From NCBI GenBank assembly GCA_015680905.1, contig CM027382.1, positions 11,319,501 through 11,383,500 on the forward strand: 64,000 nucleotides of DNA, read 5' to 3'. Below the pieces are notes generated by a model. It ran no database searches, had not been told where the DNA came from, and saw only the letters and a program-made list of their open reading frames with translations. This stretch comes from Coptis chinensis (taxonomy: Eukaryota; Streptophyta; Magnoliopsida; Ranunculales; Ranunculaceae). Numbering within the stretch: the first letter of the stretch is position 1; every line of letters begins with the position of its first letter. Of this stretch, positions 4,485 to 45,927 are shown piece after piece. The translations under genes were made by a program, and so were the position numbers.

Positions 4485-4554
4485 GACTAAAAAGTACGAT
4501 AGAGCAAAAAATTTAGAACAAAAGAAGAGTTTGTAGAGTAAGGAGGGAATAAGG

Positions 4555-13012: not shown

Positions 13013-13030
13013 TTGGCGCCGTCTGTGGTC
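13013..13030 (+). other. Primer-binding site of the Tat element
   Basis: TTGGCGCCGTCTGTGG directly follows the 5' LTR. The same sequence stands behind the LTR-like segment of the second Tat element at 37608. Its position fits a tRNA primer site; the exact tRNA was not determined. Confidence 0.8.
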
Positions 13031-13097
13031 TCAATTACTTGAGAAACCAAACCACTTCCAAACAAATCCGTAACCAAAACTCTCAAGCCCACGAAGC

Positions 13098-15404: not shown

Positions 15405-16452
15405 ACCAGCATAACATCTACAAAGTGCCATCATCCAGCGAGCACTCAAAAAGCACAGGTCCCGGCACCGACTGAAGAAAGGCATCAAGTGAATCTGGGA
15501 ATAGAAGACGACCCTAAACTCGTCTATGTCGGGGCTAACCTCGACCCCACATTTAAAGCTCATCTTGTAAACTTTTTGTCCATGAATAAAGATGTGTTCG
15601 CTTGGTCGTATATCGACGTACCTGGTATAGATCCTAGCGTTGCATGCCATAGGTTAAAGGTCAACCCTAGTGCCAAACCAGTTCGACAACGACCTAGAAG
15701 ATTGTCATTACGTTTTCTAAAAGCAGTGAATGATGAGGTCGATAAACTCAAGCAAGTTGGTTTCATCCGAAGGTCGATTACCCAGTTGGGTAGCAAACAT
15801 CGTGGCGCTCAAAGAAGAATGGTACAAATCCGCGTTGTCGACTTCACTTCACCAACGTCAACCAAGAAACACCTAAAGACGACTTCCCGATACCTAGAAT
15901 CGACCGACTAGTCGACCCGGACTTGTGGGCACGAGCTGTTTATCATTCATGGATGCATACAGTGGGTACAACCAAATACCACTCGCTGAGGAAGATCAGG
16001 AGAAGACCTCATTCATCACTGAGCAAAGAATTTATTGCTACAACGTTCTCCCGTTCGGACTCAAGAACGCCGGGGCGACTTATCAATGACTGGTAACTGA
16101 CATGTTCCAGGACATGTTAGGTGACACCATGGAGGTCTATATAGACGACATGGTCGTCAAAAGCAAAAAAGCAGGCGACCACCTCACCCACCTTGAGCAA
16201 GCGTTCTCCAGATTACGCCGAACTGGAATGAAGCTGAACCCAGAGAAATGCCTCTTTGGAGCGTCCTCTGGAAATTTTTTAGGATATCAGGTCTCACAGC
16301 GAGGCATCGAAGCAAATCTAGACCAAATCCGGGCATTCTTAGACATGCCCGACCCACAAACAAAGAAACAGATACAAAAGCTGTCAGGCATGGTCGCTGC
16401 ACTCAACCGATTCATATCGAGATCGTCAGACAAGTGCCGACCGTTCCTATAG
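15405..16452 (+). pseudogene. Reverse transcriptase domain of the Tat element (broken)
   Basis: The linker into RT (VYVGANLDPTFKAHLVNFL, then DVFAWSYIDVPGI) begins at about 15528 and is typical of Tat pol. The finger part follows to about 15780, then the frame is lost. The palm carries the catalytic YIDDM motif at 16138-16152, followed by the KLNPEKCLFG block. There are at least three frame changes and stops between the parts, so no functional enzyme is encoded. Confidence 0.82.
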
Positions 16453-16910
16453 ATCCTGAAAAAAGGCGAGCAGTTCTCATGGAAAGATCAATGTCACCAA
16501 ACATTCTCCACTCTCAAGGAATACCTCCCTGCGCGCCTCCGTCTTAGCCAAACCAATGACGGAGAAAACACCGGGCTCTATCCGGCAAGATCGGACTTAA
16601 GCCATCAGTTCGGTTCTCTTCAAAGAGGAAAACAATTCAGAAAAGTCGATCTACTTCACAAGTAAGACGCTCGCTCCAGCCGAGAAGAATTATTCCCACG
16701 TTGAAAGAGCAATGCTTGCTTTATTATACTCGGCAAGAAAATTCAGACCTTATTTCCAAGCTCATCCAATCAAAGTACTTAGCGACCTTCCATTGAAGCG
16801 GATCCTTCACAAAGAGAATAAGACTACTAGGATGGCGATATGGGCCGAAGAGTTGGGCGAGCACCACATGGACTTCGTCCCCCGCACGTCGCAGAAGGGC
16901 TAGGTCATCG
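16453..16910 (+). pseudogene. First RNase H domain of the Tat element
   Basis: Pieces of the retroelement RNase H follow RT: KTLAPAEKNYSHVERAMLAL around 16668-16725, then the segment FRPYFQAHPIKVLSDLPL and WAEELGEHHMDFVPR to 16900. Its role in the family is removal of the RNA strand during reverse transcription. The frame is broken between 16540 and 16700 and ends in a stop near 16904. Confidence 0.75.
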
Positions 16911-16989
16911 CAGATTTCCTAGCAGATTTTCCAGTCGACGACCCCAATTGGGAGTCAGAAGCAAAGGCACCCACAAAAGCAAACATAAA

Positions 16990-17240
16990 AATAGTCTAGT
17001 CCCTCTACGTTAATGGTTCCAGTAACCCAGGAGGCAGTGGTATCGGAATCATTTTAGTATCCCCCGAGGGAGCTATGATAGAAAAGGCAGTTCGCATAGA
17101 CTTCGCAACCTCCAATAACGAAGCGGAGTACGAGGCATTAATAATGGGGTTGCGTGCGGCAATCCAACTCGGTGTAAAGGAGCTCCAAATCTTTAGTGAC
17201 TTCGCGAACCGGTTGTTAGCCGGATCGCAAAAAGTACACT
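16990..17240 (+). pseudogene. Second, archaeal-type RNase H (aRH) of the Tat element
   Basis: SLYVNGSSNPGGSGIGIIL followed by SPEGAMIEKAVRIDF and NNEAEYEALIMGLR. These are the hallmark motifs of the additional archaeal-like RNase H found between RNase H and integrase only in the Tat lineage. The usual first catalytic Asp (VDGSS) is Asn here (VNGSS), and the frame is lost soon after 17240. Confidence 0.85.
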
Positions 17241-17416
17241 ACCAACGAAGGTAACCTTTCCAAGTACCTTCAAGTTGTTAATGATTTACTTCCTTCTTTC
17301 GCCAGAGCTACTGATACACCATTTTTGAGTGGCGAGAACCGTCCACGCCAGATAGCTTAGCGTGCATTCGCCACTCGGACACCGAATATTGTGCCCCTAG
17401 ACAACTGACCATTGAA

Positions 17417-18730
17417 GTGGTCGACCGACTAGCTTACCAAGCGGACCATGTCTTAGCGATCAGTGACCTGTGCCCACTCTCTGGAGATCAGATGAGTCAA
17501 ACATGGATGCAACCTATTATACAGTACATCCAACACGGTACACTCCCAGATGAGCGTGCCAGGGCCAAGAAGATTCCGCACCAGGCACGTAGCTATTGTT
17601 TGGTAAATGACAGGTTATTTCGCAAATCTGCTGGGGGACCTCATCTGAGATGCATCAGTCCAGAGCAAGGTCAGTTAATTTTCGCTGAGATCCATGAATG
17701 AGAGTGTGGAAACCATGCTGGAGGTCGCTCATTGGCCCATAAAGCAATTTCCCAAGGATACTTCTGGCCCCGTATGCAGATCGATGCCAAAATGTATGTC
17801 CTCAAGTGTGTCAAATGTCAAACATTTGGGCACAACATCATTCAGCCAGCCCGCGAACTGATCAACATCACGAGCCCTTGGCCGTTCCATATGTGGGGCA
17901 TGGACATTATGGGACCATTCATACCTCAGAAGAGCACCGGCTTCCATTTTGTCTTGGCTGCCACAGATTACTTCACTAAGTGGGTCGAAGCAGTTTCGTT
18001 GGCACACGTCAAAGAGTCACATGTCAGGAGTTTCATTTGGACTCATATCATCACCAGATTTGGCTTACCACACACACTGGTGATGGACAATGGTTCCCAG
18101 TTTAAGGGCAAAACAGTCAGAGAGTTCCTAGCCAAGTGGAAGATCGTTCATGCATTCTCCACTCCCCAGTACGCTCAAAGCAATGGACAGGCAGAGGCCA
18201 GCAATAAAGCCATTTTAGAGAATTTGAAGAAAGAGATTGAAAAGAACAAAAGCCAATGGCCAAACCAGCTCGAGAACATCTTATGGACTCACCGCACCAC
18301 ATCTCGCTCCAACACAGGCGAATCACCATTCTCTTTATGTTATGGCACAGAAGCTGTCATCCCCACTGAGCTGACAATCATGACAACTCGATCTGAACTT
18401 GTCGAATCAGGGCATAATGACTCAGTACTAGCTCGAGAGGTCGATCTGCTGGAAGAACGGCGTGACCTAGCAGCTATCAGAGTAGCATCTTATCAACAAA
18501 TCCTAAAGCGATCCTACAACAAACAAGTACATCCTCTATCTTTTCAACCTGGGGATCTAGTCTTGAAAAAAAACTCAAGATGACTCTAAACTAGCGCCAA
18601 CGTGGGAAGGCCCTTACATAGTGGAACGCGTCGTTGGCAATGGAGCGTACTAGATTAAAACACACGAGGGGAAGTTATTGCCATGACCTTGGAACACGTA
18701 CTTGTTAAAGAAGTTTTATCGTTAGTATCA
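17417..18730 (+). pseudogene. Integrase of the Tat element (core nearly open)
   Basis: The N-terminal zinc-binding part spans about 17650-17830 (a His-His region, then CVKCQTFG). The catalytic core lies in an uninterrupted 283-codon stretch from 17732 to 18583: GMDIMGPF with the first Asp, MDNGSQF with the second, and NGQAEASNKAI with the Glu, all in correct order and spacing. The C-terminal part (GPYIVERVVGNGAY) continues after a frame change and contains stops. The zinc part is separated from the core by a stop at 17699. Integrase inserts element cDNA into host chromosomes; this copy is inactive as a whole. Confidence 0.85.
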
Positions 18731-18884
18731 TTATGTTGTGTAGTTCATGTTTCCATTTGCTGAAAATTCAAGTATAGGTTACTTAAGTTTGTTATTATAA
18801 GATACGACATTTACTCGCCTCTCCAAGCCAAGCCACTCGCATTGCAAGCACCATCAGTACACCTGCACTAACAACATCTCTAGT

Positions 18885-19507
18885 AGCCTCTCCGAGTCTC
18901 GCTAGTTGAGGACCTATACTCCTAGGATCAACTACGCGAGAACGCTCTCAGGAGCATAACGCCCTCAGGGGCTACATACGCTCTCAGGAGCTTACAGGCT
19001 CATAGCCTCTCTGAGTCTCGCTAATTGAGGACCTATACTCCTAGGATCAACTACGCGAGAACGCTCTCAGGAGCATAACACCCTCAGGGGCAACATACGC
19101 TCTCAGCGAGCAGAATGTTCTCAGGAGCTTACAGGCTCATAGCCTCTCCGAGTCTCGCTAGTTGAGAACCTATACTCCTAGGATCAACTACGCGAGAACG
19201 CTCTCAGAGCATAACGCCTCGGGGGCTACATACGCCTCTCGGCGAACGCCTCGGGGAGCTTACGGGCTCATAGCCTCCGAAGTCTCGCTAGTTGAGGACC
19301 TATACTCCTAGGATCAACTACGCGAGAACGCTCTCAGGAGCATAACACCCTCAGGGGCTACATACGCTCTCAGCGAGTAGAACACTCTCAAGAGCTTACA
19401 GGCTCATCGCCTCTCCGAGTCTCGCTAAGTTGAGGACCTATACCCCTAGGATCAACTCCGCGAGAACGCCTCAGCGAGCAACATGCCCTCAGAAATTTGT
19501 AGGGTCA
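18885..19507 (+). repeat. Tandem array of five units, about 119-137 bp each
   Basis: Units start at 18885, 19004, 19141, 19272 and 19408 (last one partial). Each holds the order agcctctccgagtctcgct, then cctactcc-type cctatactcctaggatcaac, cgcgagaacgctctcaggag and ggctacatacgctctcag. Length varies by short insertions such as cgagcagaatgttc. It lies between integrase and the antisense ORF. Such arrays in the untranslated 3' part of Tat elements are known as a source of satellite DNA. Confidence 0.93.
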
Positions 19508-19947
19508 TGAACCCCCTAAGTCTAAACTAATCGGACACTTATCTCCCAGATCGCTCTCCCGAACAATACTACACAAACATTACGCTTTACGAGTACATCT
19601 CAGAAACAAGCCCCATAAACAGAATAATAGCTACAAGCAGTCAAGCAAAAGATAACATTAAGCATACAGTTACCACGAAGCTACATGACCAGTTTCAAAT
19701 AACCAGTTCTAACCCACCGATCTGCTGGGTTTACCCAGAAAATCCAGATCGGACCGGTGAACAAAGGGAGAAAAATTAACGAACTGCCACTTTCGTGGAC
19801 ACCAGTTCTCTGTATCAACAAAGGCGAACTGCTCAGGCAAGCCTGAAAACACAGCTCTAATGTTTAACCCTCGTAGGGGCGAAGAATAGACACAATAACT
19901 ACCAAATGAACCCAGTTTCTTACCAAGACAAAGAAGAGAAATCACCA

Positions 19948-20956
19948 TCAAGGAGCCACGACCACATGTTTGTCTTGAGGAGTAGTGCTGGTTGAAGGAA
20001 CGTGCCTCGCAGCCCGCAGAACAACGCACATACCCGTCCCTTGAGCCTCGTCTGCCTTCTTTAGCTGACAATACTTCTCGTCCAACTTGGCATACTCACT
20101 ACAGGCCGTGGTATACGCACTTTGAGCTTTACGAGCAACCCCCTGACATCGCTTGGCGTACTCAGTGACTTCCGCTACCTCCATTTGCAGCTCAGCCATT
20201 GCAGCAACCAGTTTAGCATACTCGTCAGCAGCAGCACGGTACTTCTCCTTCATCGCATCCAGCTTCCTCTTGTCAGCCCCCCATGCAGCTCGCAAACATC
20301 CCAGCTCGACTCGGGAGTTGACGTCAGTATTAGCACGTTGAACAGCGTTCTTCAGCTTGTCATACCCAGTCAGAAACTACAAGTACAAAATCATAATCAG
20401 AATCACTTAAGAAACAAAGCGGCAAAGCTGACGGATAAACACTCACCAAACAATTAGCCATGTCCATGGTCCCCAGCAGCGTCTCCATATCTTCATCCTC
20501 GACTTCAGCTTTGTCCCCGTCTAACACGATCCCCTTCAAGACTAGTTGCTATGGGCGCCGAGTGGAAGCTTTCAATCGAACGCTTTTACAAAGACGCTTC
20601 TTCTTCCGCTTTCCCCACATAGTAGAATTAAACTCCCCACGCCCCCGACACGGGGAGAGAACTCTCACTAGCGACGTGGACGACCTTGCCCTGTGTCGTT
20701 GCTTCCATCAAGAAATTCGATGGGTGTCTTCCGCCACCGAGGCGCGACTGAACACAATGCCGCCAGTCGAGCGATCTGATTTCCTGGATCGCTTGCTCTT
20801 CTTGACCCCCGACGCCAAAGCTTTTCTTTTGCCACGATCCCCATGCACATGAGGAAGGAACTCCATCTCCTCCATGAGCAGAGGAGAACTCTCTCTTAAA
20901 CTCCCTTCTCCCCTAACGTACGGAAAGCACCTAGCCATAAGAGAAGCTGAACACAT
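19948..20956 (-). pseudogene. Antisense extra ORF, proximal copy (C-terminal part)
   Basis: Read on the minus strand, a basic segment (GVKKSKRSRKSD, about 20755-20795) leads through a block resembling SAPIATSLEG into a coiled-coil of about 100 residues (starting near 20295: DKRKLDAMKEKYRAAADEYA). A likely intron lies at about 20375-20450: minus-strand donor gtgagtgtttatccg and acceptor cttgtag. Tat elements commonly carry such an antisense extra ORF of unknown function. The arrangement parallels the distal copy at 21765-23104, so this looks like a diverged duplicate lacking the N-terminal half. Confidence 0.6.
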
Positions 20957-21764
20957 AAAACAAAAGGAAGCTGGTTAGAGCAGTCAGTAACCGTCTTCAT
21001 GATCTAAAAGAAGAAAAGAGAAACGTACCTGAGTAAACGGGAAAGGAAAGCGAAGCACAAACAAGAGGGAAGAGAAGCAGCCGAAGCAGGAAGAACAAGA
21101 AGAGCAAATGCCGTTGCTCTCCCAAGACCAGTCATATTTATGCCCACGAAACGTCTCTTCCCAAGGCACACCATTATGGCATCGAGACACCAAACGCCAG
21201 CCCACCTGGCAGCCATCATTTCATATCTCCCGAGCGCCCACATTCCGACACGTGCCACGCACGCACTATAGCTCAGGCAGCTCCAAAGTGCAGAACGCCC
21301 TGGCGACCTCATAGGACGTGCGACCTGCACCGTTTAAATTGCGACAGCATGCACATGCTTACAAATGCAAACATTCATATCATACACAAGACTAAGTATA
21401 GAAAGCAAAAGCAACTAGGTTCATATTCATAAAAGGAGCGACCTAACGACATCAGGGACGCCCCAGTTCACAGACTAACCGTACTACTGAGAACACTCAG
21501 GAAATCTAGCATAGTTAATCACTAGTTATCATAATCAATGGCAAAACAGAAAAACGAGCTGCCCAGGTCAACCCAGGAAACCAGCTCTATTGTTTACGGC
21601 CAGAGGCCTGTTACAACCACAAACAACAACAAACTTTCTAAACAATATCATCAAGATCTTCTCCAAGAGCGACATTCAACACGGAGACGGAGCTCGGATC
21701 ACCAGAGGACGCCACAACTGCCTCAACAGCAACCACGTTGAGCTCGCCGGACCCCTGAAGCTGC

Positions 21765-23962
21765 TCACTCACCACACCAGTGAGGGGGGAAGGCACGACC
21801 GTAGAACGATTGCCCGGCATCTTCGGGCGATTCGCGCCGAAGTTCTCTCGAAGTTCGGCGTTCCCGCTCCTCCTGCAGGTCGTCCAGCTTCTTCTCCAGT
21901 TCCTCCCCCTCAGCACAGATGGTGAGATAGGCCTCTTTCGCTTGCAGGGTGGACGTCTTACATCGTTCAACATAGGTGTTCGCCGCGACTAGCTGGCCCC
22001 TCAACACTTCCACCTCATGCTTTAGCCCGATCGACTCATTCACTGCGAGGGTCTTCTCGAGTCGTGGCGGTGGTACAGGGCCTCAAGCCAAGATCCAGTT
22101 TGGTTTTCTCGGCTGTTGCACGGCTTCGCGGTCGACAAATTCGTCCCTCAGCGACTCAACCTCCGCCTTCTCCAAGTCAGCGATCTGCGCGGCCGTCTTC
22201 AGCTTCTGGTACCCAGCGATCAGCTGCGACAACTCGCACAACATATCACGTTAGTATCAAACAACAACATGTAACGCGATAACACAGTCAAGTTGAGCGC
22301 AAAGGTTACTTACCAGACACATCGCCTTATCCATCCCCCTCATATTCGACTCCAGCTCCTTGGCATCCAAGTCCTTCCTATCACCGTCCAAGGTCATACC
22401 CTCTAGCAAACAAGCAGCTATGGGTGCGGACTTGTAGCTGCAGTCCGACCTCCTTACATAGCGCTTCTTCCCAGTCACCTCATCTATGTACATCAGGTTG
22501 CGTTCCAGCTCGTCTTTTCCAGTACTGGAGTGCCCCTTACCAGTTTCCCTCACACCAACCTTTCCCTTTATCTTGCCAGAGGGATCTCCAACAACCCTGG
22601 GTTGAGCGACCTCCGGGTGTCCTCACCAAGGACGCTGAAATCGGGCATCGGTCTCGCCCTCGAGTTGCGAGCCGCCCTTCCCCCAGTTCGCACCTCACCA
22701 CCCCCCGGTGCGGTCTCAACCACCCTCGCAACCTTTGCAGGTCGAGACTCTGGGACTTCGAAGAGAACGTCCTCCACATCGAATGGAGCGTCCTCTCGGC
22801 CCTTCCCTGCTCCAGACCCAGAGTCCCCAACACCTCCAGCAGATTGCTTCACCCCAGTACGACCGCGGTTCCTATCTTCCCTCGTAACCAGATCACTCCT
22901 ACGCTTCTCCATCACAGGTCTCTTCGACGTCCTCCTGCTCACCTTATCCCGCGCTCTGGTCTTTTGCACTTGCCTTCTCTCCCTAATTGCAGGTCCTCCA
23001 TGTTCTTCAAAGAAATGAGCAACTTCCGGTAGCTTGGTTTGTTTCTCAGCTCGCGTCAGCCTAGCGAACTTCTCGATCACCTGTCGGCTCGACCCCTTTT
23101 TCAAGTGGATATCTGCACAGACAACGAAACAACAGTTTCAGTATAAGATCAACCAAAGCAAGTTTGATATTATCAGTCAGCGTACTGGTACCCACTAGTA
23201 AAGTCGCATATCTTATTGTCCACACTGAACCCGCTAGCACAGTAGTTTCCAACAAGCAGCAGTGGTCGTTTATCCCACGACTCGTTGCTCTTACCATCCA
23301 GAATGCTCGATAGCGTAGCTCAAGTTTGCAAGCTAAAGTTCAGCGACCTAGATCGCTTTACGAGGTAGTGCTCGATAACATTAGCGACCTCAATTCGGTA
23401 CTTCACGGGGCGCGTTCAATAGGTCAAAACCTTGAACAATCGCCACGTGTTACCCACAAACCCCGAACGGGGGCCTTGCCCGCGGTGTTCAGAACTCACA
23501 AACCAAATTTTGAAGAACGGTATCGTCATGAACGCCCTCAGCTGCCCCTCACAGATGATCACCCCATGATTTGGTGGGGTGTACCTATCGCTATAGACTA
23601 GAGCGTTTTGGTCAGGCTCATGGATCTCCAGACCGCTTACAGTTATCCCATATTTCTCTCGGATATGGGAACGCCAAAAGCATGTCCGTCCACGTTACAG
23701 CGGCGGCGTCAAGAAGACGACCTCTCACAGCGACCTAAAGTGCTAGCTTCAGCAGCTATACAGACGCAGACCGAGCCACATCTTCCTCACTACTAGCCCC
23801 CTCAACCGCCTCATCTCCATTATCACCCTCAACCACCCCACACACAGACTCATCTTTCTCTTCCTCTTCATCATCCCAGCCAAGAGAAACTTCACGAACC
23901 TCATTAGATCGCGTGTCATCGGAGTCAGACATTTTTCTTCTAACCCTAACAGGTATAGCCAC
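21765..23962 (-). pseudogene. Antisense extra ORF of the Tat element, distal copy
   Basis: Read from 23962 leftward: an acidic N-terminus (MSDSDDTRSNEV..GWDDEEEEKDE); a decayed middle around 23400-23700 with IREKYGI and GVIICEGQLRAFMTIPFF, which resembles the conserved part of Tat antisense ORFs; a segment with WDKRPLLLVGNY and a possible intron (about 23110-23195, minus-strand acceptor ttgtctgtgcag); a charged linker (22568-23104); a SYKSAPIAACLLEG block near 22400-22440; and a coiled-coil (21765-22043, ESIGLKHEVEVLRGQL). The function of these ORFs is unknown. Several stops and frame changes indicate decay unless more introns explain them. Confidence 0.6.
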
Positions 23963-24430
23963 TAGTAACTAATAGGGTATCCTAACAACTCTAGAACAGA
24001 GGCTAAGCACGAAACAAGAAGCAGAAGTTCAACAATGGCAGAGAACTAACCTGAAGGATGATGCGGTAATGAAGTAGTTTCTACCAGACGAAGCAGCCAA
24101 ATGAAGTTTTAAAAGAGCCAGCGAAATTTTTGAGAAACCGCCCCTCCAGTTTCCAAGGCATCATGATTACACCCCAGCCCTAGCCTAGCCCCGACTTCGA
24201 CTTCCAACCAACCAATTCCCCGCTTTTTCACATCCCGAAAAAATGGGGCGCACGCGTTTTCTCTGCAGAATCGCCAGATCATCCGCGTCTTCAACACGCG
24301 ATCAAACGTTTGCACCCACCAGCTCACATGGTTAACACGAGCCGCTCCTCACAGATCGTTGGAACTTTCCACCTCTAGCATGCTCCACACATGCTAACGA
24401 TCTCTCTCAGCAGGTCATTTTCACAACCTA

Positions 24431-24444
24431 CTGAGAAGGGGCTG
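24431..24444 (+). other. Polypurine tract of the Tat element
   Basis: ctgagaaggggctg lies immediately before the 3' LTR, in the expected place for priming of plus-strand DNA synthesis. It is short and interrupted by pyrimidines. Confidence 0.6.
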
Positions 24445-24970
24445 TGTAGGGGAGTGATATTCTCTATCCAGCACGCGCCTAACATGGTGGAAATGACGCA
24501 TCGACCTATGGATCCAGGTCGCATCCATGAGCTAATAGAACGCTACAGACAGGTCACAGTATCATGCGAACTACGCTATGAAGTGACTCAAATACCCCTT
24601 CCAGAAGCAATCATGACTAAAGATGCACTTGCACAAATCTTGGCCGTCGACTATCGGTCACCGCCATAGCTACTTATCTGGTGACACTCCACATCATTAC
24701 AGCAGACCTATGAGGACAGTTCTCACATGCTATCCTGATCTCCACCCCTCGTTTGGGACACCCTTTACACGTGGTGGACAAGGATACACTCTCGATATCT
24801 ATAAATACCTCCCCTATGAACTACGCTAGACCTGATTCTGCTCTCCCCCACAAAAAACCAAGAGCAAAATACGTAGGCAGTTCGCTCTCAAGACGAACTC
24901 GGTCCATCCAATAACCTATTCCAGTCCCCCATCGACTGTTTGTAAGGGAAAGCTAAATCACACCTTTACA
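24445..24970 (+). repeat. 3' LTR of the Tat element
   Basis: Starts TGTAGGGGAGTGATATTC and ends CACCTTTACA, followed by the ATATT duplication. Differences from the 5' LTR cluster around 24650-24720, where several small indels occur; elsewhere there are only scattered substitutions, mostly transitions. Confidence 0.93.
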
Positions 24971-24975
24971 ATATT

Positions 24976-26725
24976 CTTCTTGCATTAAAAAAACAAAATT
25001 GTCACGGTAGGTATTGGGATTCTATTGCTTTGAATTAGTCTATTAACAATTTTGAATTGTCCCTTATTTATTTATTTTCCCCTTTTCTTTTCTTTCACTT
25101 TACTCACAAATAATTTGTGTATTGGTTATAGGACGACTGCCTCACATAATTTGAAACACATATAATTGAAAAAAGTTATTTATAAGAAAATAAATAATTG
25201 AAAAAAATTTCTAAATCGTTCCCATATGTTGATTATAACCCTGAACATCATATATCTACACTATATGATAGCCGGATCTTTAGGAGGAAAATTTCTCAAC
25301 CGAATCTAATTTGTAATCTCTATTTTATGATTTTAGAACCACCTCCCTTTAATTATTCTAATTTTCCTTTTTAAATAATTTAAAAAACTCTCTCAATTGA
25401 AATTAGAATTAGATATTATTTAAAATAATTTAAAACCCTCATTCCCAAATTATATTCAACCCCTCCTAATGTTTTATATTATTTTTAGATTATAACCCAA
25501 AAAAATCATACTATCGATAATGTTAGAGCTTAATGATTTAAAAATTTGAAAAATACCGATCGCGTATAGGATTTTATAATAGGATCTATTATACTTTTCA
25601 ATATGGACATTGTGAAAACTCAAAATGACCATTTTTACAATTTAATTCAGCTGGACCGACTAGTATTTATTCAAATAAAATTTTAAAATAGACTATATAA
25701 TTACCAACTTAGTTCAATTGGAATGACAAACTAAAAGTGATTATATCAATTATATAGCAAAATCTTGAATTGTTTCGTTACAAATTCAACTAGCTTACAC
25801 CCCTGACTTTACGAGTCAGGTTTGACTCTACATGGCATCCGGTCCGGTTTATCTCGGTTCAGAACTTGACTGGTTCAATGGTCCAACCATCGGTTTCGCT
25901 TGGTCCAACCATGGATACTGGTTTTCACCAACTCGAACTGAAAATGTTACCAAACCCGGTTGGACCCAGTTGGCCCCGGTGCAATCCGGTTTTCAAAACG
26001 TTGCATTTTTGGCTTTTGCACCTATGAACCGGAATGTGATGCCTAATGAGTAATGATAATAGTCGAGCACTGCATGGGCCTCTAATATCTTCTAATTTCT
26101 AACGTATGGGATGACTTCACATTTTCACAACTTTCTTATAATGTTGTCCATTGCTATTCGGCACCGATCCCATATCTTTGTCACTTGGCAACGCATGTCG
26201 TGTACTGTCATAGTCATCTAGAAAACCTTTTTATTTATTTTTGTTGTTTTCCTTCTATATAAGCTTCCTTGTTACTTGTTTGCATTGTACTAGCTGAACT
26301 GTCGGAGCCAAAAATTAGGTGTCCTTATTTATAAAAGCTATCAGTATTCTAGCTATCGTTATCATCCAATGGCCCCAAGTATAATCTATACAATACGGAA
26401 TTAACTATTGAATTGCAGGTATTAACTAGCGAAGTGGGTAAAATTTTTGGCCATAATACTAGTGAATTATATTATTTTTAATGAAGATGGTCTCTCTGCC
26501 TTGTACAATTTTTTATTATATTATATTCGGAAAGACGAGCTCGTACCGTCGTACGTGATCAACTTTAAACCTTGCAAGTCCACCTAGCATTATTGAACAA
26601 GCTTCAAGTTTCTAAAGTTTTCAAGTGGTTTATTTTTCATATATGTATATATTAGTTACCTGCAGCAAGGTATGTCGAAATTTTCAAATGGGATCAAAGT
26701 TTTTTGTACAAAGATTCTGTGTCAT
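24976..26725. other. No gene recognised (1.75 kb)
   Basis: Very AT-rich sequence. The 74-codon frame at 25832-26053 lies in a segment of repeated ggttcaa / ggttggacc motifs and resembles degenerate repeat DNA rather than a gene. No terminal repeats could be assigned. Confidence 0.5.
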
Positions 26726-26829
26726 AAGAGCATCTTTAAGAGAGCTACAAAAAAAAAACTAAAATTTTGAACCAAAAAAACACCAAACAACTTTAAGAGC
26801 AACATCAAATTTTCACCAAGCAACTACAC

Positions 26830-26975
26830 AGTTTTGCCAAAACCGCGCCATATAGCCTACGCGGTTTTGCCAATACCGCGCCACTAAAGTCTAACTGACA
26901 GGTCCAAACTCACGCGGTTTTCAGAAAATTGTGCGGTGTTCAGAACACCGCGTGCTATTTTTATATAAACAAGTC
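26830..26975. repeat. Left subterminal repeats of the PMD element
   Basis: Repeated gttttgccaaaaccgcg, gcggttttgccaataccgcg and cgcggttttcagaaaattg motifs, partly inverted. They mirror the cluster at 29550-29690. Such subterminal repeats serve as transposase-binding sites in other TIR elements; that role here is inferred. Confidence 0.6.
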
Positions 26976-27081
26976 CAAAGCCGCGCGATTCAATCACTTT
27001 CAACTCTTCTATAAATTATAAACCCTCTCCTTTAGTTTAAAAAAAAAAAAACAAAAACCTACCTAAACTCTTGAAATTTTA

Positions 27082-29324
27082 TATGGATTCTTTTGAACCT
27101 TTCGACGTGATGATTGGCAGTACACAAATGACATTGGCGATGGGGGAGAAGAACCCGAAGAAGTACAATACGGTGGGGGAGAAGAACTCGAGGATGTCGT
27201 GCCGACTGATAGACATCCCTATGTATTGGAGTATCAGATGAACGACTTCGATTGACAATTTGCACCTGGAGAAGCACTTGATATGGAAGTTGTGTCTTCT
27301 ACACGTGATACAAAATACGTGTCGAGTGCAGTGGCTAATACTCAGGTAATTAATTAGTTTTGATTAAATATTTTAAATATTAATTAGTTGAGTTGGACCA
27401 ATTAATTATTTATCTTATACGCATTATTATTTTTTCATAATATCAGCATGTTATTGACTACCGAGTTAGATCGGCTTTACATGGTGTTAGAGAGTGGTGG
27501 AAGGTTATTAAGAGTTTGGATGAGTTTGTACATATTAGAGATAGTATTTTGTATACACCTTTGGGTCTTTTGGTTGATGTGGATTATAAATAGGTTGATT
27601 GGGCAGTGGTCATAGCTTTAGTAGAAAGATGGTGGAGTAGAACTCATACATTTCATTTCCCTTGTGCGGAGTTAGGGTTCACACCACTAGACTTCACTAT
27701 GATTTCTGGGTTGAGTATCGGTATAGGCTAACCGATACCTTTTCATACAAATTATGAGAATATGGATAGTATGTTTATGAGTTTTCTTCATTTGGGTGCG
27801 GATGCTTATGATTCTTCTGGTATTAAGCTATCTCATATTAAGACTGCATATATGAAACCCCTCTTAGATCCTGATACACGAGCGGAGTTAGCTTTGATTG
27901 TTCTACCTGGTAGTGAGGGTGCTGATGCATATGTTATGGCTTTTTTGATGTTTTTTATTGGGCATGTTCTGTTTCTCAATGGTCATTCTACAGTACGACT
28001 GAGATATTATGCTTATGTATCTGATTTGTATGCTATGAGAGATTATGACCTGGGTAGCTCAGTATATGCCACATTGATAGCGGCATTAGATAAAACTTCA
28101 CAGACATTCGGAAGTAGAAGTCCTCAGATTGCAGGATTCACAGGACTTTTAGAGATTTGGTTTATGAGTACTTTCGAACTCTTTGTCCTAACATAGACAT
28201 AATTGCTGATACTCGCCCTAGATTTGGTAGTTGGTCGTATTCTCACTTGATTAAATATCGAGGGGGCAAATTAGAAATAATGTCTGTATGGCTCGTACTC
28301 AGATTGATATTAGATCATTGTCATCTATTGAGTGGAGACCTTGGCGTTTGACTACTGCCTTTGTCGATCCAGTTGTGCAGCATGCTTGTGTGTTGTCACG
28401 TCACAGAGTTGTTTTTGCCGCACGTGACTATATGGTTTGGTATTGTGGCGACAGATGACTGGACGTTATGGAGTTCCATGTGCTCCCATGCCAGATGTTA
28501 GTGATGCCAAGTCGTGGGATAGAACTCAAGTTCATGAAGTTCATGCCAATGGTGGTCCTTGGCCAGATGCGTTTTCTTTTGTTGTTGAGCATACTGCTGA
28601 TCAGTATTATAGATGGTGGAACCGTGTCTTCATGGGTCCGTTGTTGCCCCCTGTTGGTCGGGCTAGCAACTTCGAGTTTGTGGGCCTAGAAGGGATGAGA
28701 CGTGAGCTACGTATTCCTCATCCGCCACAGCCTGTTTACAACCCACAACCTCTGAATGCATATCATCCAAATTCGTAATCCGCTAGTAATCCTCAGATGT
28801 TTGCGTGTGTGGACTGATGGGGAGGCTACTTACATTTCCATTCCTGAGGTGCCTCGTGCTCGTTGCCATGAGTTAGAGCTGCAGATTGATCAGTATACCA
28901 CGGTGAGTTTCGTTATTTTATTTTTCTTATTCATTATATATATAATATGTACTCACCATGTATTTTCTTAGATTTTCAGGCTAAGATTCGGGAAAGATAT
29001 GAGAACCAGATTTGTATGTTTGATGGGATGAGGATTGCCGTGTATCATTATAGCCAAGAAAGGGAGGAGGCATATTCTCAGACATATCAGCAATCCCAAC
29101 GTGCGTATGACGAGACTCGAAAAGCGTCTTTGGATATTCAAAGAGGTGTACACGCAAATGAAGATCGGGGATATGAGGAACTTTAGGCTGAGGTAGTTAA
29201 CCTTCGTGCAGACAGAGAAGATCTTGATTCTCAGGTTAGGAACTTAGAGGAACAACTTAAGAATATCCAAATAGAGAGAGGAGAGGGATCGAGTGGTAAG
29301 GGGCATAAGAAGAGAGCTAAATAA
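27082..29324 (+). pseudogene. Plant mobile domain (PMD, MAIN/MAIL1-like) gene, decayed
   Basis: An acidic N-terminus (GGEEPEEVQYGGGEELEDV, near 27150-27205, one frame change after the ATG) precedes a likely first intron (donor 27346 gtaatt, acceptor before 27447). The PMD core follows: LVERWWSRTHTFHFPCAELGF, then TPLDFTMISGLSIG, the open stretch 27762-28196, and the tail FSFVVEHTADQYYRWWNRVF near 28575-28635. A second intron is likely at 28903-28979 (gtgagt...ttttcag). The last exon is a coiled-coil ending in the basic GKGHKKRAK. In-frame stops occur at about 27253, 27590 and 27729. PMD proteins include host genes for genome maintenance and silencing (MAIN, MAIL1) and transposon-borne versions; this is the transposon-borne type. 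Confidence 0.8.
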
Positions 29325-29549
29325 ATTTGATGTAATATGATAGGTTTTGGATCATTTTGGATATTATAATCATAGATTTTGGACTGCATAATCATAATCA
29401 TAATCATAGGTTTTTAATTTTTTTTAATTTTTTTGATTTTGAATCACAATTCTTAATTTCTTCAATTGCACAATTATTAATTTCTTAACTTCTATGCACA
29501 ACTCATAATTTTTCAAGTTCTATGCACCACAGTTCTAATTTTCAGAAAA

Positions 29550-29690
29550 AACGCACGTGGTTTTGCCAACACCGTGCCAATAGAAGCCCAAGCCCACGTG
29601 GTTTTGCCAAAACCGTGCCATAGAAGTCCAAGCCCACGCAGTGTTGGGAAAACCACACGGTTTTGGCAAAACCGCGTGAGTGATTTGATA
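29550..29690. repeat. Right subterminal repeats of the PMD element
   Basis: Three or four copies of cacgtggttttgccaa(a)accgtgcca followed by the inverted form ggttttggcaaaaccgcg. This pairs with the left cluster at 26830-26975. Confidence 0.6.
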
Positions 29691-30033
29691 CAGCATCAAA
29701 CCTAGAACCAAATATTGGCCAATTTGGTGTTTGGTTTGGTATTTTTTGTGTTTTCATTAACATGTAGCTTTCCTGAAGTTGAAAAAATACCAAATTGTTG
29801 GAAATTTGGTATTTGGTGCTAGGTTGATATCACTCCTAAAGATACTCTAAGAAGACTATCCTCCCAAAATTTTATGATTCCATTTTTGTTTGAGGTAGTA
29901 AGGCTGTAAGGCCATCTCCAATAGGGTGTAAACTATATAATTAAGATGTATAAAGTTAATTTATATCCCCAATTTTAAAAATATCTTCCTAATAGAGGTA
30001 CAAATTGTAAATAATAGCTAATAATAACTATTA

Positions 30034-31680
30034 CGCAAAGTTCTATCAATGGTGCGCCATCCCACCAAATATGGCAAAAATCGTGATCCAATGGTGCGTC
30101 AAAACACCAACCCGTTAACGCTATCATTATTAATTTACCTATGCATAGCGTGAGTTTTAGCGAAATGGCGTATGGTCTACACGCCACTCTGAAAAGCTAG
30201 TAGAATATATTTTGTTGGCATGCCGCTACAAATGGCGGGTAGAAAGTGTTTGCACACCACTAGGAGTTAGGGGTGGGCAATGGGCCGGGTCGGGCTAGCC
30301 CGACCCTAAACATTTAAAGCCCTTCATATATTAGGGCTGGGTCGGCCCGGCCCTAAAGTTAGCATATCGGGTCGGGTCGGGTCACAAGTCTAAACCTCAA
30401 GCCTCGACCTCCACTAGCCCCTCTTTAAGGGCTTTAGGGTCGGCTTTTAGGGCCTGCCTATATATTTTCTTTTTTACTACATCAGTTTTAAAACTCATTT
30501 ATATTACAAAATGTACAATAATCTACAAACTCAAAGTCCAACCAATTTAGTAATAATAATCAGATAAGTCCAAAAATTTAAAATACACATCCACAATCTA
30601 ATGAACTGAAGTGCATCGAGAGTTCGAATTTGTTCTTCCTTGTACTCAAACCTCAATTTTTTGTTACATTTAACATTGAAATACATAGACAAATAATTAT
30701 ATTATCATTTTAAAGGAAGAAGTAATAGATATAAAGAAGAAACATAATAGTTTTGGTTAAGGTCATGAAAGTTGTTAAACTATTTGTAATATCATAAATT
30801 ATTTCTATAATAGATTTAAACAAATATAATATTACCTTTCTTCTAATTTAAAAGTGATTCAAGCTTTGTATATGGAAATGAAAATATTGGCTTTTGAACA
30901 AGTGATGGAGAAAGGTTTGAGATTACAAATGTCATTTTTCCGAAAGGGTGTTTTTGGTTTCTATGTTACAAATATCCGTCTATTTTTGCTTTAATGGTGT
31001 GGAAGGAAACCTTTAGTTTTAGACTTGGCTTGGATGTGAATAAAAATATAATTTATAAGAAATAAGTGAGAAAAAGAAATTGAGAATAATAAGTTATGGA
31101 CTTTGATTTGATGATCAAAGGAATAAAGTCTTATTTTTATTTAGGCTAGTGCTCATTGTTCTTTTCATGGTCGCTAAGTTGACAAGTTTTTGTTATATAA
31201 AACAAGTTATTGGAAGTACCTTTGGGGTGTAAGTGATAAATTACAAAGGACAATGTTATTTTAATTGAAAATATTTAACAAAGAGTTGGACAATTATGGT
31301 ATGTGTATTTTATAGTAAAAGTATGAAACAGGGGCGGTTAGGGCTTGGTTAGGTTTTTTTAGCCTAGCCCTAGCCCCTGCCCTAGAAGGGCATTAGGGCG
31401 GCCGGCCCTAAACTCTGGGAGGGCTTTAGTTGTGAGGGGCTTTATAGGGCTTAGGGTCGGGTCGGTCGGGGGCATTAGGGTCAAACTAGGAGTGGTGCTT
31501 GATAATACTTGCTTGATTTTGGCTACACGCTATTGGGAGAGGCGGTTAGAAATTCAAATATTTTATTCATGCCTTTGACACTGTCAAATGGTTAGAAACC
31601 ATTGGGTGCGACTTACACCATTCCGCTAACACTATCTCTGTGTTATAGTGGGATAGCGCACAAAACTATTAGACTTAGCC
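30034..31680. mobile_element. MITE of the GGCTAAGTCTAAT family, nested, itself interrupted
   Basis: The right end reads inward as GGCTAAGTCTAATAGTTTTG, like the 82-bp element at 10806-10887; the left end (CGCAAAGTTCTATCAATGG) is diverged but pairs further in through gcgccatcccacc / gtgggatagcgc. TTA flanks both sides (30031-30033 and 31681-31683). A 1.2-kb hAT element sits inside. Confidence 0.6.
30268..31485. mobile_element. Non-autonomous hAT-type element (family A, copy 2), 3' tip deleted
   Basis: Starts TAGGGGTGGGCAATGG like the copy at 4933 and shares its AT-rich interior (for example gtgtggaaggaaacctttag near 31000). The perfect 8-bp duplication CTAGGAGT (30260-30267 and 31486-31493) proves insertion. 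The expected right tip (CCCACCCCTA) is missing just before the duplication, so the element has lost one terminal repeat and cannot be mobilised. Confidence 0.85.
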
Positions 31681-31782
31681 TTAGATCGAGTGGAGAATTC
31701 TCCACCCAGATACAAGTTGGTAAAAGACACTAGCACCACCAACTTAAAACAAGTTCGGATGTTACTAGGAACAATAATTCTA

Positions 31783-32712
31783 CACTGACGACATAGAGAT
31801 TTTGACACAGTTGACTGACACAGTGATGTGGCACTGCAACATCAATGTTGCACTATGAAAAACTATTACTGCAACATCAATGTTGTATCGAGAAGTTTCA
31901 TTGCAACTTCAATGTTGCATTATGAAAAGTACTGTAACGTGAATGTTGCACCAAGAAATAGGGGTGTACACGGGTCGGGCATGGGTCTAAACCGACAACC
32001 GAATCGACCCTATCGGTTTATACTTTTTTGAAACCGAACCAAACTGGTTTTGTTATATTAACCGAACCGAACCAAAGTAATTTCCAATCGAACCGATACT
32101 CGAACAGAACTGATTGGGTTACGGTTTAACCGATATTAACAGACCCGAACCGATCGGTTTTTATATATTTTAAAATTAAATCAATTAAATATATATATTC
32201 TAATATATATTATATATATCGGGTCGGGTTTGGGACTAAACCGATGACCGAACCGACCCTATCGGTTTTCAAATATACTTAATCAAACCGAACCGATTCA
32301 TAAACATAATTGACTCAAAACCGATCGATTCGGTTCGGTTCAATCGGTTGTGTCCGTTCAGCTGGTTTATGCACACCCCTACCAAGAAATATCACTGCAA
32401 CATCAATGTTGTACCATAAAACCAACGCAACATGAATATTGTACCGAGAAATATCACTTCAACATCAATATTGCACTATGAAAACCATTACAACATCAAT
32501 ATTGTACCATGAAAAACCAATAGAATCGATGGTTTGCTATAAAGAAAATATGAGAATGACACAATAAGAATGGGAAAATGATAATGGAAGAGAAGAAGTG
32601 TTTTGAGTGAGAGAAAAGAGATTTTTGGCTCTTATTTTCACCACTGCAATATTTATGTTGTAACATATCACGTCACTGTGTTTTAACTGTGTCATTTTTC
32701 CTGTGTCAGTGT
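31783..32712. mobile_element. TIR element with CTACACTGAC ends, nested
   Basis: The left end CTACACTGACGACATAGAG (from about 31779) and right end CCTGTGTCAGTGTAG (to about 32715) form inverted repeats extending about 50 bases with gaps (both include GACACAGTT and CAGTGA). Internally the motif tgcaacatcaatgttg(t/c)a is repeated about eight times at 31835-31955 and 32394-32510. TA or CTA/TAG border the core, which would suit a TA-duplicating family, but the class is uncertain. A hAT element divides it. Confidence 0.6.
31959..32381. mobile_element. Non-autonomous hAT element, 423 bp, perfect 8-bp duplication
   Basis: Ends TAGGGGTGTACACGGG and GCACACCCCTA, flanked by CCAAGAAA on both sides (31951-31958 and 32382-32389). 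The body is made of ccgaaccgatcgg / cggttcggtt motifs in both orientations. It is inserted in the middle of the CTACACTGAC element, so it is the younger of the two. Confidence 0.92.
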
Positions 32713-32775
32713 AGTATTACTCTTACAGTTTTACTATGAGTGACGACACACGAGTTTGCAATAAGTTATTTTTAG

Positions 32776-33090
32776 TTAGGGCAGGAAATCGGGTCAGGTT
32801 TGACCCGAATCTGACCCGACCCAAATCCGAATAGTTTGGGTTCGGGTCGATTTTGATATCCGTTTATTTATTTGGGTTGGGTTCGGATTCGGATATAATT
32901 TTTGGGGTTTTTTTTGGAATTTTTAGTGTTATCTAATCGAGTCGTTTAGGTTTAGGTCGAATTTGGATTGAAAATTTCGGTTTGATTCGGATTGGAGTTC
33001 GAATTCGAATATTGTCAAACTAGTCGGATTCCGATATAGTCATATCCGAACCAAACCCAACCCGTAAAATAAGCTCGGACATCATTATTC
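32776..33090. repeat. GGGTCGG/ACCCGACCC-rich inverted segment
   Basis: Reads gggcaggaaatcgggtcagg at the left, with aaacccaacccg at the right end, and many gattcgg / gttcgga motifs between. It resembles the interior of non-autonomous hAT families with GGGTCGG-type subterminal repeats, but no clear terminal repeats or target duplication were found. Confidence 0.4.
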
Positions 33091-33239
33091 ATGGCGACTA
33101 GTGTTTTAAAATTCCTAAGATTGTAATAAAAATTCCCTTTGGAAAACATATAGTAAAATATGAAGAGTTGTAAAATACTAGGGGCACCTAGGGCCTATGT
33201 AGAAATGCAACTATGCATCCCCCATTGGAGATGCTCTAA

Positions 33240-33943
33240 GCAATCTACCATTCTACCATGTTTTGTCAAACTTTTTAATTTTCCACTACAATGTTACTAA
33301 GTTTGATGAATCATCCCGTAATTTTATGACGTTTACCCCAAAGATGTAAATAGTAATACGGGCATACGGCAAATATCCAGGTTGTGTTGAAATGCTACAA
33401 ACGGCCGAACACATGAGCTGGGAATCTTGCCTTAACTACAGTCACAACCCGGTTTAGCACTTGCTCCCACATGTGCTTTGGAGACTCAAGTGTTTTTGTT
33501 TTTAACTGAACTTTAAATATAGAAGGAAGAAAAATTCTAATGTGATGCTTTTGGAATGTTTCATTTTGTCCATAGGTCTGGACGTCGATCTGGTTCATTG
33601 GTAGTGTAGTGTCAGTGTGTACCCGTCCTCACATGTGAAGGTGGCAGTCCGATACTCTTTTGTGTCGTTTTCGGAGTTTCGATTCGAGCAATTATTTGGG
33701 CCTTGAGTAGATTGTCTCTACCTTCAGTCGTGATTTCTACATAACTGATCAATCAATTACTCTTCAGGACTGGTGATGTTAGCGTTTTGAAAATGTTAAT
33801 ATTCGAAGTTAAAAATAATGGTAGAGAGATTTCAGTGTGCATGTGGACATGTGGTACGTCCATCGTCATCAGTTTCGAAATTTTATTTGGACAAGTGAAG
33901 AAGCTAAATTATTATCAATGTTATATATATAATTTTGGGGTTC
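33240..33943. other. No gene recognised (0.7 kb)
   Basis: Upstream of the UGT gene. A minus-strand frame of 67 codons (33395-33598) has no recognisable motif. Distal promoter elements of the UGT gene could lie here, but none can be named. Confidence 0.4.
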
Positions 33944-34078
33944 ATGGCGGCAGCCTCGCCTGACGCTGAGAAGGTTGCACTGTTGGGTGGTTGGAACCCT
34001 ACCCGACCAATAAGAGGCGGCCACCACCAGCACGTCCGCGGCAGACCCAGCATTGATCCCTACATCATGAGATACTAG
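33944..34078 (+). CDS. Hypothetical 44-residue ORF with a GGWNP motif
   Basis: A short GC-rich frame in otherwise AT-rich DNA. It starts MAAASPDAEKVALLGGWNP and then becomes Arg/Gly/His-rich. The LLGGWNP part recalls the GGW-P start of phytocystatins (small plant cysteine-protease inhibitors), but the rest of the cystatin fold, including the QxVxG loop, is absent in any frame nearby. It may be a fragment of a gene or chance. It ends about 185 bases before the UGT start codon. Confidence 0.2.
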   Translation: MAAASPDAEKVALLGGWNPTRPIRGGHHQHVRGRPSIDPYIMRY

Positions 34079-34223
34079 ATACTTTGGGTGTGATATGATC
34101 TAGATACTTTGTTGGAACTTGGAGGACAAGTAATTTCAATTATATTATATATTAGGATAAGAATCAATTGTTTAGTACAATAATATTTTAGGCAGCGCAG
34201 AAAGGACAAAAAAAGGGTACACA

Positions 34224-34232
34224 TATATATAA
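34224..34232 (+). promoter_or_regulatory. TATA-like box of the UGT gene
   Basis: tatatataa about 32 bases before the annotated ATG (34264). With normal spacing the leader would be only a few nucleotides, so initiation may instead use the second in-frame ATG at 34276. Confidence 0.45.
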
Positions 34233-34263
34233 GCCACAAGATAGAGAGAAGATTAAATTAGAA

Positions 34264-36276
34264 ATGTGTAAGGAAATGAGAGGTAGTCCAAAGGGTCATG
34301 TTGTGCTCTTCCCTTTTCCAGCCCAAGGCCATACAACCCCAATTCTTCAATTTGCCAAGAGATTAGCTTCCAAAGGTGTCAAAACTACACTAGCCACCAC
34401 TGTGTACGTCTCCAAAACTATGCATATAAAAAACTGCAACGTTGGAATTGAAACTATCTCTGACGGATTCGATGAAACCGGCTCATTCCAAGCAGTAGAC
34501 TACTTTAAATCTTTCGAAGAAGTTGGCTCACGAACTTTAACCGAGATCATCAACAAGTATAGCAATGATAGAAGTGGTGAATGTGACTATGCACCGGTTA
34601 CATGCCTTCTATGTGATTCTATAATTCCATGGGGTTTGAACGTAGGTAAGAAACTTGGGTTGGTTACTGGAATATTTTACACTCAATCATGTAGTGTGAC
34701 TTCCATGTTTTACCATATCAAACAAGGAAATTTGAGTGTTCCAGTTGAAAAGCCAACAGTATCCATTCCTGGATTGCCACTACTTGCTAACGAAGATTTA
34801 CCTTCTTGTGTGAGCGTCTTGGAAGGTACAACACCAAGTGCGTTGAGTCTGTTAATGGGTCAATTCGCAAATGTTGAGAATGCAGATTGGCTTCTTTACA
34901 ACACTTTTGAAGAGTTGGAAAGCGAGGTGAGTGATTACTCTTATTAATTAGTACCTTGTGGATCTTAACAAGCTCTCTCGAGTCTCCCCTGGCTTAAACA
35001 AACCAGTAGCTAAACCCCTGACTTATCCGTCAGTTGGCAAAACCCCCTCTAACGAGCAGGTGAACCACCTCGTGTTGGTAGTCCACTCATATGATTGTGC
35101 GTGAACTAGCGGACGAATCACTAAGTGGGGATGCTCCCGCCTCCAGCATTTGCGAACCTGCATAGAAAACTCTGGTGCGCTCTGTGTCCATGGGCTTGAC
35201 GGAAGTACATGAAACCTTTAAATAATGCATCAATCTATAAGTATTAGCACCCCCAAATTATTTTCAATACTGCTCCAAACCCGTTGATTGTTCTCCACCC
35301 TCCATAAGCAGATAACTAAGAAAATAATCTAAAATTTTGTTCTTGTATGTGGTATCAAATTAAAATTTTGAATTATATTTCTTATAAATGTTTGATTCTG
35401 TTTGATTTCTCAAGCATGAGCAAATGCATCAGTACTGGTTTTTGCCAGGACAAATTGTAATAAGCAACTCTTGAAGTAGTAGGTTTAAATAAGAAATCCC
35501 AATCCTCCAAATTTCTTAACTTATATTTTTATTTATGTGTGATATTGCGATAGATTCTGAACTGGATGCGGGAGTTATGGCAAGTTAGATCAATTGGGCC
35601 TACGACACCGTCTATGTATCTAGACAAGCGCGTGGAAGGTGACACAGAAAACAGCTTCTATATGTTTAAGCCAAGTGATGCAACTTACATTAAGTGGCTT
35701 AATGCAAGGGAAAATGGATCTGTTTTGTACATTTCGTTTGGCAGTGTCGCTACACTAGACGAGGAGCAGATGGAAGAGTTAATATGTGGTATAAAGCAGA
35801 GCGAAAGGGATTTCATCTGGGTAGTAAGGGAAAAAGAACAAAGCAAACTCCCAGCTAACTTTGCCGAGGAGATGCTGCAGAAAGGATTGGTGGTGCCATG
35901 GTGCTCCCAAGTAGAAGTGTTAGCTCATGAGGCCGTAGGCTGCTTCTTAACGCATTGCGGATGGAACTCTACCATAGAGGCATTAGGCTTGGGAGTGCCT
36001 ATGGTGGCAATGCCAAATATATGGGACCAGCCCACAAATGCTAAGTTTGTTGAAGATGTTTGGGAAATAGGAGTCAGGGTTAAGCCGGATGACAACGGAA
36101 TTGTAAGAAGGGGAGAACTAGAGCGATGTATAAGAGAAGTTATGGAAGGTGAGAGTGGAAAAGTGTTTAAAGCAAACGCTAGTCGGTGGAGGGAAGCGGC
36201 TAAAAATGCAGTAGGTGCAGGTGGGAGCTCAGATTTGAACATTGACGAATTTGTATTGAGCATTACATACCCCTAA
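34264..36276 (+). CDS. UDP-glycosyltransferase, UGT74 family (two exons)
   Basis: Exon 1 is 34264-34926, exon 2 35554-36276, together 461 residues, normal for family 1 plant UGTs. The enzyme is cytosolic and transfers sugar, usually glucose from UDP-glucose, to a hydroxyl or carboxyl group of a small acceptor. Seen: FPAQGH at residues 18-23 with the catalytic His23; the partner Asp118 (LLCDSIIPWG); the 44-residue PSPG donor-binding box at 337-380, from WCSQVEVL through THCGWNS to the closing DQ, whose final Gln is typical of glucose users. PSMYLDKR in the linker and the intron position after FEELESE are typical of UGT74. Known UGT74 members act on salicylate, auxins or thiohydroximates; the acceptor here cannot be told. 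No stops or frameshifts. An alternative start is Met5. A fragment of a duplicate lies downstream. Confidence 0.92.
34927..35553 (+). other. Intron of the UGT gene, 627 bp
   Basis: Begins gtgagtgatt and ends gatattgcgatag, phase 0. The junction joins FEELESE to ILNWMRELW, matching the order in other UGT74 proteins. No other feature was recognised inside it. Confidence 0.9.

Positions 36277-45896: not shown

Positions 45897-45927
<31 letters not shown>

Follow-up and report, generated by a model that had tools for sequence, protein, structure and literature searches.

What kind of element carries the plant mobile domain (PMD) gene found in a 64,000-nt stretch of the Coptis chinensis genome (contig CM027382.1, positions 11319501-11383500; hereafter the window, to which all other coordinates refer)? 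We analyzed this stretch together with the species' own genome, searched as 935,630,033 bases in 116 contigs. A single 3,120-base unit at 26728-29847, bounded by 15-bp inverted ends with TAA on both sides, is very probably a decayed copy of a non-autonomous, Pack-PIF-like subfamily of PIF/Harbinger elements in which a PMD gene lies in the transposase slot. An initial annotation made from the sequence had already outlined this unit (as 26729..29847, one base late at the start) and had proposed, as one of two possibilities, a non-autonomous PIF/Harbinger element with a captured PMD. That proposal is upheld by sister elements encoding a transposase and ORF1, by TAA/TTA duplications, and by an empty site, a pattern from which capture of the gene may be surmised.

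How does the PMD element relate to elements with a transposase? Six elements in the same genome (L010, L014, L016, L017, L019, and L020) have the same ends and contain transposase and ORF1 frames. A DDE transposase, which the initial annotation advised seeking in the family, is thus encoded by sister elements: L017 has an open frame of 462 amino acids that matches Plant_tran (PF04827, E = 1.1e-88) and DDE_Tnp_4 (PF13359, E = 9.5e-13), and L014 matches the same two families (E = 2.7e-92 and 6.6e-14). Pieces of ORF1 match the NAM-associated domain PF14303 in L019 (E = 4.1e-11) and L020 (E = 5.6e-8); no Pfam family was matched significantly by the pieces from the ORF1 N-terminus in L019 and L010. 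In the sister elements the transposase reads inward from the A end, with ORF1 reading from the B end, and the six paired elements have ~160-265 bases in common with the PMD element at each end, at 75-87% identity. Aligning five PMD elements with six transposase elements at their A ends shows similarity that extends across the subterminal zone and, more weakly, along the leader to the start codon, where PMD and transposase frames both open with ATG(G/A)AT(C/T) at the same place. In comparisons of PMD with transposase leaders, 29 of 30 pairs scored above all 200 simulated pairs, with 1 of 200 at or above the score of the remaining pair; for the final 45 leader bases alone, the corresponding counts for four pairs were 0, 3, 1, and 1 of 1,000 simulated. 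Because ends and leader are common to PMD and transposase elements, we place the PMD gene in the transposase slot, and its coding region would have replaced the transposase behind the latter's own leader.

Do PMD copies move as units with these ends? Because selection by ends was to be avoided, we picked ten loci by a 24-mer from the PMD interior, taking the first ten exact matches on contig 1 that had not previously been fetched and examining only their predicted ends (8 of the 22 exact contig-1 matches were already in the set fetched by ends). All ten had element-end homology on both sides, the lowest local score being 113 vs. a null maximum of 39, and six had both terminal inverted repeats (TIRs; ≤3 mismatches) with equal TAA or TTA. 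PMD copies extending past the proposed ends without TIRs, which had been named beforehand as grounds for doubt, were therefore not seen among them. We also tabulated the flanks of 11 elements for which both ends were known, namely seven PMD elements, among them that of the window, and four sister elements. Equal TAA or TTA flanked all 11 (7/7 PMD elements), and the flanking sequences were unrelated at E 1e-3 with two exceptions: a flank of L011 with a flank of L028, and the two flanks of L017. In L028 (301-3964), the PMD element is inserted in the TAA of another family member's TIR. Its joined flanks restore an uninterrupted TIR, as seen in 6/6 miniature inverted-repeat transposable elements (MITEs) compared, and do so without the PMD region; they thus represent an empty site, at this one locus, and not the PMD-containing empty site that would have spoken against the element. 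It follows from the position of this insertion that the family ends contain the family's own preferred TAA target.

How widespread is the family? Genome-wide, exact matches to the end motif GAGYATCTTTARGAG number 966 (469 + 497), vs. 4 for a reversed control, and the PMD-interior 24-mer is present at 380 places (180 + 200, ≤2 mismatches), vs. 0 for its control. Both counts are lower bounds, because neither the 24-mer nor the exact end motif detects diverged copies; for example, the GAGYATCTTTARGAG pattern does not match end variants such as GAGCATCTTTAGCAG, found in several PMD copies. The genome search suggested by the initial annotation also recovered full-length copies, with L011 and L013 aligning end to end with the window element at ~92% over aligned bases. 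From 100 of the 966 places we sampled 56 end-motif loci, consisting of 12 inverted pairs, 40 of 75 other places (29 forward on contig 1 and 11 reverse), and four more from the same 75. PMD was found in 12 of the 56 (L011 and L013 among the pairs; L028, L031, L034, L036, L039, L043, L046, L047, and L058 among the 40; L062 among the last four), and the family transposase or ORF1 also in 12 (L010, L014, L016, L017, L019, L020, L038, L040, L041, L042, L048, and L056). All three protein queries were run against 44 loci (L021-L060 and L062-L065), and none of these held PMD together with transposase or ORF1. At L026, L060, and L065 the only transposase/ORF1 matches, near family ends, were distant (~23-43% identity) and probably belong to other Harbinger families. 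These three are counted among the 19 MITE-like loci, whose two ends lie ~350 to 550 bases apart, while most of the remaining loci had one recognizable end only within the fetched stretch. Four sites (L045, L050, L051, and L052) gave no match of ≥100 bases to the element, the L052 site (= L005) matching over 59 bases. All inverted pairs but L018 (11/12) are bordered by equal TAA or TTA, and L060 is bordered by TCA at each end.

Within the window, the claimed 15-bp inverted ends with TAA duplications hold, the A and B ends agreeing at 13 of 15 positions. Taken alone, an inverted pair with a duplication is a weak signal, with a mean of 0.57 per simulated 64 kb (30 simulations) and 2 in the window; the decisive evidence is genomic, namely the recurring end motif, the full-length copies, the duplications, and the empty site. 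The two subterminal zones resemble each other with a local score of 55, vs. maxima of 31 among 1,777 placements with the same spacing and 39 among 500 simulated pairs. These zones had been described as mirrored repeats: the similarity is confirmed, and the mirroring is only partly meaningful because the units are near-palindromes, direct similarity (55) being higher than inverted (44). With ≤3 mismatches, the CGGTTTTGCCAAAACCG core is present in the unit and in three other window places, each at 3 mismatches. Rfam (gathering threshold) and tRNA scans of the whole window returned no matches, and a literature search with the end sequence returned nothing relevant.

The PMD gene of the window element, as predicted from sequence alone, starts at 27083, stops at 29322-29324, and has two introns. 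Its read-through translation, with X at breaks, matches PF10536 with E = 1.2e-21 (77.8 bits, profile positions 15-287 of 347), and a six-frame scan with stops as X gives E = 4.4e-19 (69.3 bits). The longest open piece of the window gene, of 144 residues, scores 30.4 bits (E = 2.9e-7), under the PF10536 cut-off of 34.9 bits; open frames of L013 (65.7 bits) and L011 (58 bits) score above it. The window gene is broken: its 603 complete codons include 4 in-frame stops, and its pieces are spread over three frames. The spliced PMD gene of the initial annotation therefore stands with regard to its domain and predicted introns and fails with regard to intactness. As that annotation had also observed, no DDE transposase is visible: scanned in six frames against Pfam (E ≤ 0.1), 25000-29801 matched PMD and no other family, and 29800-34601 at the same threshold matched no domain, so no transposase is seen in the unit or just beside it. 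Searches with one 154-aa PMD piece confirmed no relatives in viral_contigs and genome_contigs and found no meaningful match among solved structures.

How might such a subfamily have arisen? We propose that an ancestor retained both element ends and the leader before the transposase start codon, and that a two-intron PMD coding region would have replaced the stretch between this start codon and the B-end zone, as the common ends and leader suggest. Because PMD and sister elements have the same ends, the sister elements' transposase and ORF1 would then have mobilized the copies in trans. Insertion at TAA or TTA with its duplication is the step that can be read directly from the copies. All 12 copies compared, that of the window among them, are now broken. 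Some observations sit uneasily with this scheme. The leader similarity is moderate; one or both TIRs are decayed or missing in 4 of the 10 loci picked by the PMD 24-mer; one inverted pair, L018, lacks equal duplications (ATC and TTA); and some single family ends adjoin AAC, ACT, TCT, or TTT instead of TAA/TTA. As an alternative to replacement, the ancestral element may have carried both PMD and transposase.

Is the PMD of use to the element? The initial annotation had raised the possibility that it takes part in mobility or silencing, for which we found no positive support, and had asked whether intact copies keep an open PMD frame. In-frame stops (1 to 8 each) occur in all 12 copies compared, that is, the window and 11 others, with L062 left out. 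Terminal-branch PMD changes by codon position are flat (0.61, 0.54, and 0.54), and internal-branch rates for positions 1, 2, and 3 are nearly so (0.110, 0.102, and 0.132). On the L031+L039 and L028+L036 branches together, fixed differences are synonymous in 19 cases and nonsynonymous in 42, and none involves a stop, where neutrality gives 27, 69, and 4%. The L031+L039 branch (support 1.00) alone has 7 synonymous and 23 nonsynonymous differences; the L028+L036 branch has support of 0.32-0.34, and the grouping that also includes L058 has support of 0.99 and gives 12 synonymous and 17 nonsynonymous differences. Three further groupings have 2 to 6 differences each. Neither the codon-position nor the fixed-difference tests detected constraint on PMD, and transposase controls are equally flat. 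The transposase must once have worked and yet looks the same, which makes the selection test weak, with little power either way.

These data bear on the rival view that the PMD is a working accessory, made from a transposase-type leader and either countering host silencing or aiding movement family-wide in a two-component system. PMD elements are abundant (380 interior matches), and the leader and start position are those of the transposase gene. In addition, Ty3/gypsy and Mutator-like elements (MULEs) also carry PMD, with counter-silencing proposed there (PMC5418596 and PMC8616336; here and below, statements on cited papers refer to their accessible parts). Furthermore, stops are involved in 0 of the 61 fixed differences on the two branches vs. 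~2.5 expected, although this is not significant. The stops in 12/12 copies, the synonymous and nonsynonymous shares close to 27% and 69%, and the nearly flat internal branches speak against it, with the caveat that the transposase control is equally flat, and we consider an accessory role unlikely. Its most explicit version, a two-component PIF/Harbinger system in which a transposase + ORF1 class is accompanied by a PMD sister class, alike in ends and leader, that shields the family from MAIN/MAIL1-type silencing, making this a third PMD-recruiting superfamily, we hold to be quite unlikely. The element's PMD is most likely a passenger, perhaps expressed at one time from the leader of the element itself.

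Could the unit be something other than a PIF/Harbinger element? If it were a partly seen MULE or Ty3/gypsy element with PMD, its Harbinger-like ends would be coincidental. PMD is common in both of those element types (PMC6446971 and PMC9289625), and a pair of direct repeats (4929-5748 and 30263-31482, ~80%) brackets the unit, though the pair is hAT-like by eye with its own 8-bp duplication. Around the unit, however, no 8-11 bp duplication lies beside a good inverted repeat (best arms 10/15), nor did longer-duplication boundaries of MULE or hAT type turn up with one. A MULE with PMD should show a ~9-bp duplication beside its TIRs and a MULE transposase, and neither was found; no MULE, integrase, or reverse transcriptase domain was detected in 25000-34601. 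As for an LTR (long terminal repeat) retroelement, the LTR-like pair in the window ends at 24970, and the whole unit recurs between TIRs without a retroelement domain, where LTRs and gag-pol around the PMD would be expected of a Ty3/gypsy element. Copies stop at the same TIRs, which elements with a PIF/Harbinger transposase share, and the sister elements and the empty site refute this explanation, to which we give next to no weight. The same holds for an ordinary host PMD gene lying between two MITE insertions: family MITEs are frequent among the fetched loci, but several whole-unit copies with duplications stand at different sites, one empty site is known, and the repeated full-length unit refutes a chance arrangement of this kind, which would be exceedingly improbable. 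A decayed, Pack-PIF-like element with a PMD gene in the transposase slot remains the best explanation.

Features of the PMD element and its target-site duplications in the window (strand "." where none applies)
Feature	Coordinates	Strand	Basis or remark
Target-site duplication TAA, left	26725..26727	.	read from sequence
Terminal inverted repeat, A end, GAGCATCTTTAAGAG	26728..26742	+	family motif, 966 exact vs. 4 reversed controls
A-end subterminal zone, near-palindromic CGGTTTTGCCAAAACCG-like units	26743..26954	.	similar zone in transposase-bearing sister elements
Leader up to start codon	26955..27082	+	resembles transposase-gene leader of sister elements
PMD gene exon 1, encoding an acidic N-terminus; broken frame	27083..27345	+	predicted from sequence
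Predicted intron 1 (GT..AG)	27346..27446	+	GT and AG retained in two other copies
PMD gene exon 2, encoding the plant mobile domain (PF10536); frame shifted and interrupted by in-frame stops	27447..28902	+	Pfam
Predicted intron 2 (GT..AG)	28903..28979	+	GT/AG retained in L011 and L013; 11-base gap before acceptor in L013
PMD gene exon 3, encoding a C-terminus that is basic and, by eye, coiled-coil-like; one in-frame stop	28980..29324	+	predicted from sequence
B-end subterminal zone, same near-palindromic units as A end	29550..29687	.	zone comparison
Terminal inverted repeat, B end, inverse of GAGTATCTTTAGGAG	29833..29847	-	sequence comparison of ends
Target-site duplication TAA, right	29848..29850	.	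read from sequence

The window also contains other sequences resembling mobile elements and host-type genes. A 468-bp Tourist-like MITE of a different family, with 15/15 inverted ends GGGCATCTCCAATGG and TAA duplications, lies at 1144-1611. Another Tourist-like end, GGCCATCTCCAATAGGG, is found at 29910-29926, ~60 bases past the PMD element; its candidate partners are near 31686 (~31670-31690, by eye, with GC-rich subterminal repeats of similar design) and at 33220-33236 (3 mismatches). A repeat at 30268-31485, ~80% similar to 4929-5748, appears hAT-like by eye and, again by eye, is flanked by the 8-bp direct repeat CTAGGAGT at 30260-30267 and 31486-31493. An LTR-retrotransposon-like unit with direct repeats 94.7% identical and an integrase core domain occupies 12484-24970. 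Two host-type genes were identified by Pfam domain, namely a UDP-glycosyltransferase piece (PF00201) at 35554-36276 and a DUF617 gene on the minus strand at 3822-4598. At 45866-47447, long open frames of 334 and 222 aa overlap, and neither has a Pfam match.

How does this element compare with known systems? Pack-PIF elements of maize and rice (PMC8903248) are likewise non-autonomous, with PIF/Harbinger ends, a 15-nt TIR, TTA/TAA duplications, and non-transposase coding DNA inside. The window unit fits this description, having PIF ends and a duplication around coding DNA other than transposase or ORF1. The examples described there, however, hold short fragments or a single exon, whereas the window family carries a whole two-intron gene at the transposase start, and hundreds of its copies share one cargo. 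As a PIF/Harbinger element it has the 3-bp TWA duplication and the TIRs and subterminal zones of transposase elements, with no transposase of its own. Autonomous PIF/Harbinger elements, as described in Medicago (PMC2213677) and in the PHIS survey (PMC4482050), resemble the family in that its sister elements encode both proteins and in their short TIRs, TWA duplications, and MITEs; the window element differs from them in having PMD instead of transposase and ORF1. The domain named for the second PIF/Harbinger protein is Myb/SANT, or YqaJ in ISL2EU, and not PMD (PMC2213677 and PMC4482050).

A rice MULE and Ty3/gypsy elements are known to carry PMDs, two captures by MULEs having been proposed and an anti-silencing use suggested (PMC5418596), and many flowering-plant MULE families list PMD, often antisense (PMC6446971). 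Such MULEs (PMC5418596 and PMC6446971) are, like the window element, DNA transposons with PMD for which anti-silencing use is proposed, but they have a MULE transposase and, where given, mostly 9-bp duplications, in contrast to the 3-bp duplications and PIF/Harbinger sisters seen here. Ty3/gypsy PMD-A elements (PMC5418596 and PMC9289625) are likewise mobile elements with PMD as an additional gene; they are LTR retrotransposons, however, whereas the window unit has no retroelement domain or LTR pair of its own. The host genes MAIN and MAIL1 (PMC7156037) have the plant mobile domain too but act in silencing, and two Arabidopsis PMD proteins help silence transposons (PMC5418596). In the literature searched, in the parts accessible and with Repbase and most subscription papers outside its scope, we found no report of PMD in a PIF/Harbinger element.

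What does the comparison imply? PIF/Harbinger would be a third superfamily with PMD, which here fills the transposase slot and is present in many copies; its elements can evidently multiply an entire spliced gene placed behind a leader of element type. Because sister elements with PMD and others lacking it coexist in one genome, the counter-silencing proposal becomes testable in a natural setting. In tea, 175 phased small interfering RNA (phasiRNA) loci lie at PMD genes (PMC10673657), and element PMDs may help explain the large PMD gene counts in some plant annotations, such as that of tea. Overall, the window family appears to be a new combination, joining PIF/Harbinger ends to a full PMD gene at the transposase position: its structure is Pack-PIF-like, and its PMD is of the kind found in some MULEs.

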